From the NCBI GenBank assembly GCA_020353235.1, contig CP070693.1, positions 590,831-641,192 of the forward strand: a stretch of 50,362 nt of DNA, in the 5' to 3' direction. The stretch comes from Dehalococcoidia bacterium (GTDB lineage: Bacteria > Chloroflexota > Dehalococcoidia > Dehalococcoidales > JAUYDJ01). The position numbers and the translations under genes were made by a program. A model generated the notes under the pieces. The model worked only from the letters and a program-made list of their open reading frames with translations, had not been told where the DNA came from and made no database searches. Shown one piece after another: positions 16,866 through 19,998 of the stretch (the stretch's first letter is position 1; every line of letters begins with the position of its first letter).

Positions 16866-16988
16866 ATGAGTGAAGCTAATCTTGAGGCGAACGGGGACAA
16901 AATGACCAAAGCAGCATTGTCCCCGTTCTGTTGCTGGCAAGACTTCTTAGCCCAACAGAAAGGAGGCAGCTTTGGAACTAAACCGTAG
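16866..16988 (+). CDS. Possible 40-residue leader ORF overlapping the fdhA start
   Basis: ATG at 16866 with AAGAAGGA about 5 bp upstream opens a 40-codon frame beginning MSEANLEANGDKMTKAALSP and continuing FCCWQDFLAQQKGGSFGTKP. It ends at TAG 16986–16988, inside the first codons of fdhA in another frame. The start-site quality and the overlap would fit translational coupling to fdhA. It also contains both arms of a 12-bp inverted repeat, which could instead be the real constraint on this DNA. No family is recognised; it may be untranslated. Confidence 0.35.
   Translation: MSEANLEANGDKMTKAALSPFCCWQDFLAQQKGGSFGTKP
16889..16928 (+). repeat. 12-bp perfect inverted repeat before fdhA
   Basis: GAACGGGGACAA (16889–16900) and TTGTCCCCGTTC (16917–16928) form a perfect 12-bp stem with a 16-nt loop. 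It ends 33 bp before the AGGAGG site of fdhA. No T-tract follows, so it is not a standard terminator; it could be an mRNA processing or stability hairpin between the mini-proteins and fdhA, or an operator. Confidence 0.8.
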
Positions 16989-19900
16989 AGATTTCCTCAA
17001 AATGTCCGGGGCATGTGTTGGTGCCACGGTGGCTTTTCCTTTCCTTTCCGATACCACCATCTGGGCGGCTCCCAAAGAGTTCCCCCTGAAAAAGAAGGTC
17101 AAGGAAACCAGCACCATCTGCTGCTACTGCTCGGTAGGCTGTGGCGCCATCGTCAATGCCTATGAGGATGGCATCATCAAGATAGAGGGGAACCCGGACC
17201 ACCCCATCAATGAGGGGACGCTGTGCCCCAAGGGTTTAGCCATGTCCCAGGTTCACCAGGTAGATGGTGAGCTTAACCCATTCCGACTTACCAAGCCTCT
17301 GTATCGGGCTCCCAACTCAACCGACTGGGAAGAGAAATCGTGGGACTGGATGCTGGATACCATCGCCCAGAGAGTCAAGTCCACCCGCGACCAGAACTGG
17401 AATGCCAAGGCGAACCGAACCGATGCCATCGCCAGCCTTGGCGGTGGGGAGCTGGATAACGAAGAGTGCTACCTGCTGGCTAAGATGAACCGCGCCCTGG
17501 GCGTGGTTTATCTCGAACACTGCGCCCGCCTCTGACATTCCTCCACTGTCGCCAGTTTGGCGGAAAGTTTCGGTAGGGGGGCAATGACCAATCACTGGAT
17601 TGACATCAGAAACGCTGACTGCGTTCTGATTATCGGCTCCAATGCCGCTGAGAACCACCCCATATCTTTTAAATGGGTGGAAAGGGCAATGGAGGCGGGA
17701 GCCAAACTTATTCACGTTGACCCCCGTTTCACCCGCACCTCTTCTAAAGCTGATATCTACGCTCCATTGAGATCGGGCACGGATATCGCCTTTGTCGGTG
17801 GCATGATTAACTACGTACTCAACGACATGAAGCAAAACCCCCAGAATTACAATATGGATTATGTAAAGCAATATACCAACGCCGCGCTTATTGTCGACCC
17901 CGGATTTACCTTCCACGAGGGGCTATTTGGTGAAGTGAAAGATAGTAAATACAGCGCTGCGGCCAGAGCAACCTGGAAATACGCTGATAAAACCACCCCC
18001 GCTACCGACCCGACCCTGCGGAACCCCAACTGCGTATTCCAGCTGCTCAAGAAGCATTTCTCACGCTACGATGTGGATACGGTCGGCAACATTACCGGCA
18101 CCCCGAAGGATGTTTATCTGGAGGTCTGCCGCACCTACGCCGCCACCGGGCAAAAGGGCAAGGCAGGCACCCTGATGTATGCTATGGGCGCCACCCAGCA
18201 TACCTATGGTACCCAGAATATCAGGGCCTACGGCATACTCCAGCTCCTGCTGGGCAACATGGGTGTTGCCGGCGGCGGTATCAATGCCCTGCGTGGCACA
18301 TCCAACGTTCAGGGCTCGACTGATATGTGCTTGCTGGCCCATATCCTGCCTGGCTACCTCGCCATACCCAAAGAAGGCGATACCAATCTGGAAGCCTATC
18401 TCAACCGCGCCCGTCCGGCTACGATAACGCCCCAGGGGCTGGCCGGAGACAAGAGCGCTAACTGGTGGGGTAACTACAAAAAGTATATCGTCAGTCTGCT
18501 CAAAGCCTGGTACGGCAATGCCGCCACCAGGGCTAACGACTTCGGTTTTAATTACCTGCCCAAGTGTGACCCCGGCGTGAACTACACCCATATCGGCATG
18601 TTTGAAGCCATGGGCCAGGGCAAAATCAAGGGGCTCTGGGCCTGGGGTCAGAACCCGGCCTCCGGCGGTCCCAACTCCAACGGAGAACGGGAAGCCCTGG
18701 GCAACCTGGACTGGCTGGTTTCGGCCGACATATGGCTGAATGAAACCGCCGAGTTCTGGAAGAGACCGGGGGTAAATCCGGCTAATATCAAGACTGAGGT
18801 ATTCGTCCTGCCGGTGGCTTGCTCCTATGAAAAAGAAGGTAGCATCACCAATAGCGGCCGCTGGGCACAGTGGCGCTATAAGGCAGTGGACCCGCCCGGA
18901 GAAGCCATGCCCGACCTTGAGGCGATGAACCTGGTCATGCTCAAGCTCAAGGAGCTCTACCAGGCCGATAGCGCTGCACCGGCACGCGACGCCGTAACCA
19001 ACCTGGACTGGAATTACGGGGCGCACATCACGGCCGACGCCGTAGCCAGAGAGATAAACGGCTACGACCTGACCACCGGCAAGCTGATGGCCAGCTTCGG
19101 TGCCCTCAAGGATGACGGCACCACCACTTCCGGGAACTGGCTCTACTGCAACATGTATACCGAGGAAGCCGGCAATAAGGCCAAGAAGACCGACCCGATA
19201 GATGCCCATCCCAAGCAAATCGGGCTGTACTCCAACTGGGCATGGTGCTGGCCGGTCAACCGGCGCATTATCTACAACCGGGCTTCCGTTGACCTCAACG
19301 GCAAGCCCTTTGACAGCGAACATCCGGTTATCCTGAACTACGCCGCCGATACCAAATGGCAGGGTGATGTGCCCGATGGAGGCTGGCCACCGATAAATCA
19401 GGCGGCGGCGGGAGAGAAGTACCTACCCTTCATTATGAAGCCGGAAGGTGTTGCCCGTCTCTGGGGTTATGGGCTAGCCGAGGGGCCGGTACCCGAGGTA
19501 TATGAGCCCTGGGAGAGCCCGTTAGATAAAAACCTGATGTCGCAAACCAAGACTGACCCTTGTTCCTTTGTCGGCAGCTTTATGAACAACCGAGGCACCC
19601 CGGAAAGGTTTCCCTACGTAGGCACCACCTATCGCTGCACGGAACACTGGCAGACCGGTATCATGACCCGCAACCTTCCCTGGCTGGTGGAGCTGATGCC
19701 CGAAATGTATGTGGAGATGGGTGAGGAGTTAGCATCAGAAAAGGGCATCAATAATGGCGATAGGGTTATCGTAAGCTCAGCACGCGGGGACATTGCCGCC
19801 GTGGCGGTGGTCACCAAACGTTTCCGGCCGCTACAGGTAGCCGGGAAAACAATCCACCAGATCGGCGTGATATGGCACTTCGGCTACAGCGGTATGGCCA

Positions 19901-19998
19901 CCGGTGATAGCGGCAATATCCTTACCCCCCACGTGGGTGACGCCAACACCACCATTCCGGAATACAAGACATTCCTGTGCAATGTGAGGAGGGCATAA
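16972..19998 (+). CDS. fdhA: Selenocysteine-containing formate dehydrogenase, catalytic (molybdopterin) subunit
   Basis: A 1008-residue enzyme if the TGA at 17533–17535 is read as selenocysteine (residue 188): frame is unchanged on both sides, and [20 protein letters not shown] matches the R-V-U-H active site of FdnG/FdoG-type formate dehydrogenases. It oxidises formate to CO2 at a Mo/W-bis-MGD centre. The N-terminus has a twin-arginine signal (NRRDFLK, residues 4–10) and hydrophobic stretch, so it is exported. A [4Fe-4S] motif (CCYCSVGC…LCPKG) precedes the active site; the molybdopterin-binding domain ends the protein. Start is TTG 16972 with AGGAGG 5 bp upstream. FdhB follows 1 bp later. 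Length matches FdnG. Confidence 0.93.
17545..17568 (+). promoter_or_regulatory. Candidate bacterial SECIS hairpin
   Basis: Nine bases after the TGA, ACTGTCGCC–AGTTT–GGCGGAAAGT can fold with a firm CGCC/GGCG upper stem, an imperfect lower stem and a five-base loop carrying GU. In known bacterial elements SelB reads a loop GU at about this distance from the UGA. Fold is by eye and the element also encodes protein. Confidence 0.6.

Follow-up and report, generated by a model that had tools for sequence, protein, structure and literature searches.

The locus examined here, part of a 50,362-nucleotide stretch of a Dehalococcoidia genome that is referred to as the window, raises two linked questions: does a formate dehydrogenase frame interrupted by a TGA codon encode one selenocysteine-containing respiratory enzyme or two gene fragments, and where would the electrons of such an enzyme go? 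Whether formate is a possible electron donor in these small Dehalococcoidales hinges on the correct reading of this TGA. Judged from its sequence, the three-gene operon very probably encodes a Tat-exported, membrane-anchored selenocysteine (Sec) formate dehydrogenase of the FDH-N type (Table 1).

Table 1. Features of the formate dehydrogenase operon, its surroundings, and related genes elsewhere in the genome
Feature	Location	Strand	Remarks
Two-component pair, NarL type	window 13887-16039	-	flanks the operon
Shine-Dalgarno-like AAGGAGG	16960..16966	+	ahead of TTG start; read from sequence; spacing 5 bases
fdnG, Sec-containing FDH-N alpha	16972..19998	+	1008 aa; Tat signal RRDFLK; 4Fe-4S and bis-MGD domains
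SECIS, bacterial (SECIS_3, RF01989)	17530..17588	+	59/59 model positions; 37.6 bits; apical loop GUU 17555-17557
TGA read as selenocysteine U188	17533..17535	+	catalytic His next
Beta subunit, HybA/HmcB-like	20000..20803	+	multi-[4Fe-4S] electron-transfer protein; C-terminal hydrophobic stretch
Gamma subunit, NrfD family (PF03916)	20800..21960	+	HybB/HmcC-like; no heme-b protein; 10 hydrophobic segments
Membrane PAS protein, 252 aa	window 22185-22943	+	flanks the operon
Second Sec fdnG	G000:C1:328456-331482 (L029:9957-12989)		TGA; 62% identical to window FdnG
tRNA-Sec (selC)	333948		anticodon TCA; about 2.5 kb downstream of second fdnG
selB	641541-643379		over cutoff; just beyond window's right end
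selA	643419-644762		over cutoff; just beyond window's right end
selD	644906-645832 (L030:6889-7935; about 644.9-645.9 kb)		beside selB/selA; own Sec codon, VRGAGUASKIGPGDL
Cys-type FdhA (RLCHAPTV) with NuoE/NuoF-like genes	L031:4918-7581, about 801-802 kb	-	cytosolic-type formate dehydrogenase

The selenocysteine codon and its decoding

The alpha subunit lies in one frame that is interrupted solely by the TGA; when this codon is translated as U, the two open reading frames obtained with genetic code table 11 (16972-17535 and 17557-19998) become a single protein with U188 at the active-site position. The match to the FDH-N alpha profile TIGR01553 (1230.3 bits, cutoff 814.2) covers residues 3-1006 and runs across the TGA; in a PDB sequence search, the closest solved structures were formate dehydrogenases, mostly annotated with Sec and including Escherichia coli FdnG (1kqf). 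These results bear out the first-pass annotation, which had carried the frame through the TGA, placed the codon at an R-x-U-H active-site position, and expected automatic callers to split the gene.

Rfam at its gathering threshold found no SECIS, so that a relaxed local search was needed; it yielded a SECIS_3 match positioned on the codon, with E-values of 3.8e-7 within 351 bases and 2.9e-7 genome-wide. The score falls short of Rfam's gathering score (63), and so do those of the elements scanned in relatives (26-48 bits). Across the genome, SECIS_3 matched three places, the two TGA-bearing fdnG genes and a weak site at the Cys codon of the Cys-type FdhA (21.6 bits, E 0.014). The RNA is predicted to fold into a long imperfect hairpin with its GUU apical loop 19 nt past the codon (-17.6 kcal/mol); this is the hairpin with a GU-containing loop that had been pointed out downstream of the TGA. 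Its z-score is only -1.4, and synonymous codon use at the loop is the stronger test: the SECIS loop is made up of the bases of the seventh codon past the Sec codon, the third base of that codon is T in 100 of 102 Sec genes and in three of seven Cys genes, and serine codons at this position differ synonymously by 0.00 in Sec Dehalococcoidia, 0.04 in all Sec genes, and 0.54 in Cys genes. The 12-codon windows around the SECIS were not the most constrained of the gene, and no region-wide constraint is claimed. The hairpin sequence GTCGCCAGTTTGGCGG recurs identically in Dehalogenimonas-like genes with proteins only about 55% identical.

The genome, a single contig of 1,121,908 bases (95% complete), contains selA, selB, selC, and selD, the four genes proposed as a check on the Sec reading, and also FdhD. 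Full-length relatives of the alpha subunit are spread through the class and also occur in Desulfobacterota, Bacillota, Zixibacteria, and other groups; in the compared set, the position of the Sec codon is TGA in 102 genes and Cys in 10. Close relatives keep both the TGA and the hairpin, instead of the sense codon and lost hairpin that would have pointed to another reading. Because the SECIS_3 match, the sel genes, the TGA in relatives, the frozen loop base, and the recurring hairpin agree, decoding of the TGA as Sec appears nearly certain. The contrary reading, in which the TGA either truly terminates translation or stems from faulty assembly, leaving two fragments or a pseudogene, agrees with the two open reading frames of the gene caller and is exceedingly improbable, given the identical codon in about 100 relatives of several phyla and in the paralog, the SECIS, and the full Sec machinery; conservation of the TGA among independent assemblies led to its rejection.

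Standard gene calling splits or truncates no fewer than two respiratory formate dehydrogenases of this genome, as well as SelD, which is truncated in table-11 calling because of its own Sec codon.

Phylogeny and catalytic residues

The 117-row tree is a quick tree with weak deep branches; in it, the window protein belongs to an 11-row clade (SH-aLRT 100) that is entirely Sec-containing and drawn nearly completely from Dehalococcoidia, with an FdnG of Dehalococcoidales bin10 (81% identical) as its nearest neighbor. The proteins of Dehalococcoides and Dehalogenimonas group apart, in a clade (SH-aLRT 100) that mixes Sec and non-Sec members. These genus labels were inferred, among other things from kinship and the published picture; genomes G098 (1,469,720 bp) and G124 (1,686,510 bp) we take to be D. 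mccartyi 195 and D. lykanthroporepellens BL-DC-9. An FdnG with 73% identity to that of the window lies on a contig that bears the label Deltaproteobacteria, a case of either transfer or mis-binning.

Among 122 aligned FdnG proteins, the histidine after U/C and the arginine of the motif LRGxSNVQG are both present in 114, every one of which carries U or C at the site; the window protein is among them, and its complete catalytic triad U-H-R supports the earlier suggestion of a formate oxidase. Both residues are lost in the other eight: three Dehalococcoides-type proteins, which read S-T-G, two Dehalogenimonas-type proteins, which read S-Q-S and G-P-N, and three Cys-bearing proteins of other Dehalococcoidia. 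In the OmeA-type proteins (L159, L164, L165, L160, and L163), Sec/Cys, the catalytic His, and the catalytic Arg have disappeared together. The serine that the first-pass annotation gave for the Dehalococcoides enzyme is present, but Sec is not the only residue lost; since H and R are gone as well, the serine already known from the Dehalococcoides CISM accounts for one of three lost catalytic residues. This full triad loss in OmeA is a mildly fresh point. A separate FdnG-like clade of Dehalococcoidia (L176, L177, and L181) retains Cys and has V/I in place of His and A/T in place of Arg; it is probably another group with a non-formate function.

The window protein had also been regarded as a Sec version of the same class as the Dehalococcoides CISM. 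It is 47% identical to OmeA, has an intact triad, and branches outside the OmeA cluster in a different clade; by this placement OmeA does not have its Sec counterpart in the window protein; its close Sec relatives are those of Dehalogenimonas. Because the clades are separate, the class likeness would be true at the family level only. Among relatives of OmeA whose active site is intact, the nearest are Sec enzymes with an NrfD anchor.

Electron-transfer subunits and exchange of the membrane anchor

The beta subunit scores 285 bits against the HmcB profile, 255 against HybA, and 204 against FDH-beta (TIGR01582), all under the curated cutoffs; the gamma subunit scores 303 bits against HmcC and HybB alike, again under the curated cutoffs. 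The gamma subunit is a PF03916 NrfD protein and not the cytochrome b of FdnGHI; its 10 hydrophobic segments, like those of HybB, come from a Kyte-Doolittle count only. It is about 40% identical to the anchors of Dehalococcoides and Dehalogenimonas, and a PDB sequence search with it gave no matches. The membrane partner is therefore NrfD/HybB-like, as first proposed; the accompanying view that such an anchor is unusual did not hold, since it recurs in Geobacter, Desulfuromonadales, and Dehalococcoidia and has been described as FqoABC or type II CISM.

Downstream of Sec FdnG, an NrfD-type anchor was found in the window clade, Dehalogenimonas, Geobacter, Desulfuromonadales, Desulfocapsa, and others, and a cytochrome b anchor after the close FdnG relatives L066, L144, and L146. 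In one MAG (bin.356), FdnGs that are 79% identical have different anchors. On the 117-row tree, anchor type requires about nine changes, and the beta subunit switches along with the anchor (Hmain/NrfD vs. H2/CytB scores). Since beta changes with the anchor, module exchange is suggested: a combined beta and gamma module, of NrfD or cytochrome b type, would have been exchanged repeatedly between close FdnG relatives, a mildly fresh result. FdnG relatives with either NrfD or cytochrome b anchors occur within one MAG (L066 vs. L064) and as two copies at one locus (L167).

The same small genome has a second Sec FdnG operon that resembles a normal FDH-N operon with cytochrome b FdnI and FdhE: downstream of fdnG come a beta subunit with TIGR01582 as its nearest profile, a cytochrome b gamma subunit (TIGR01583, 112.3, just under the cutoff of 115.85), and an FdhE-like protein.

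The kinase and the PAS protein that flank the window operon have a membrane domain in common, with 35% over 82 aa. Near the formate dehydrogenase operons of L069, L070, and L085 there are homologues as well; on these two grounds, dedicated regulation of the operon is likely.

Electron acceptor and direction of the reaction

In the proposed mechanism, the UGA would be read as Sec via the downstream SECIS with SelA, SelB, SelD, and tRNA-Sec. Formate would be oxidised to CO2, the predicted activity of the complex, by Mo/W-bis-MGD and Sec on the outer face; electrons would pass through the [4Fe-4S] clusters of alpha and of the relay subunit beta to a p-side site at the gamma subunit, a cofactor-less NrfD protein of the HybB/HmcC type. 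Menaquinone or a partner complex would be reduced at this site, with proton uptake through NrfD.

The quinone-gene search covered MenA, MenG, and MqnC; MenA-like and MenG-like genes adjoin at about 1.034 Mb, and MqnC was not found in the genome. From this gene content menaquinone seems more likely as acceptor than a protein relay. In a quinone-free arrangement, the NrfD/HybA-type subunits would transfer formate electrons through direct protein contact to a different membrane enzyme, in the manner of OmeA-HupX-OmeB; such a relay has been proposed for OmeB (PMC10772276). Membership in the same order as the Dehalococcoides-like genomes, the kinship of the anchors, and the missing MqnC are consistent with this arrangement, and yet it appears unlikely: the MenA-like prenyltransferase beside a MenG/UbiE methyltransferase suggests a quinone, the genome has a second Sec formate dehydrogenase with a cytochrome b anchor, and no reductive dehalogenase was matched with PF13486, a model that was equally silent in every control genome.

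Sec formate dehydrogenases can be reversible, and the genome contains FTHFS; the enzyme might then act mainly as a CO2 reductase that produces formate for the formyl-THF branch. This is very improbable, as the Tat signal and membrane anchor place the enzyme outside, apart from the cytosolic FTHFS, and as the separate cytosolic-type Cys FdhA lies by NuoE/F-like genes at about 801 kb.

With formate oxidation and menaquinone as the favored reading for the window complex, a wider scenario is offered tentatively and with more doubt than confidence: in Dehalococcoidales, an intact Sec formate dehydrogenase may be wired through a HybA/HybB-type module that was repeatedly exchanged with a cytochrome b module, so that energy coupling changes and the catalyst stays, and the quinone-free Ome relay of Dehalococcoides may be a degenerate descendant of NrfD-anchored Sec formate dehydrogenases.

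Comparison with known systems

The Sec form and the NrfD anchor have both been described already in related bacteria, and the finding is largely ordinary; since Sec FdnG and NrfD-anchored FDH-N are published, the window complex is not new in kind. No literature was found that joins NrfD, formate dehydrogenase, selenocysteine, and menaquinone.

With E. coli FdnGHI (FDH-N, 1kqf), the window operon shares the Sec alpha subunit with Tat signal, the 4Fe-4S beta subunit, the three-gene order, and a TIGR01553 match over cutoff; it differs in its heme-less NrfD/HybB-type gamma subunit, where E. coli has a cytochrome b, and in a beta subunit nearer to HybA/HmcB than to TIGR01582. The FqoABC complexes are NrfD-anchored FdnGH complexes reported from, among others, 15 Chloroflexi species (PMC8076601); like them, the window operon encodes homologues of FdnGH and, as third subunit, an NrfD-like protein. 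FqoC is described with eight TM helices (PMC8076601), whereas the window anchor, with HybB/HmcC as its best match, shows 10 hydrophobic segments; on account of this difference, it may be a sub-variant.

NrfD-type molybdoenzyme complexes have been named type II CISM (PMC10772276). The Dehalococcoides OmeA/OmeB/HupX system (DET0187 CISM) also has an FDH-N-like alpha subunit and an NrfD anchor and is a type II CISM; unlike the window operon, its U, H, and R are replaced (S/T/G), and the OmeA operon has no beta gene. Sec FdnI_2 has been reported from deep-sea Chloroflexi, with subunit letters inverted relative to E. coli (PMC5736913). For Dehalogenimonas, Sec FdnG, SECIS, and sel genes have been reported (PMC4918011, PMC7729418, PMC13390414); these enzymes share with the window the Sec site, the SECIS, the sel genes, the bacterial order, and, in the four examined, the NrfD anchor, but they are 55-56% identical to the window FdnG (two compared) and form a separate clade. 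In the Dehalogenimonas-like L161, L175, L182, and L183, an NrfD-type gene without a cytochrome b match follows Sec FdnG, which differs from the published wording of a b-type cytochrome gamma subunit (PMC13390414).
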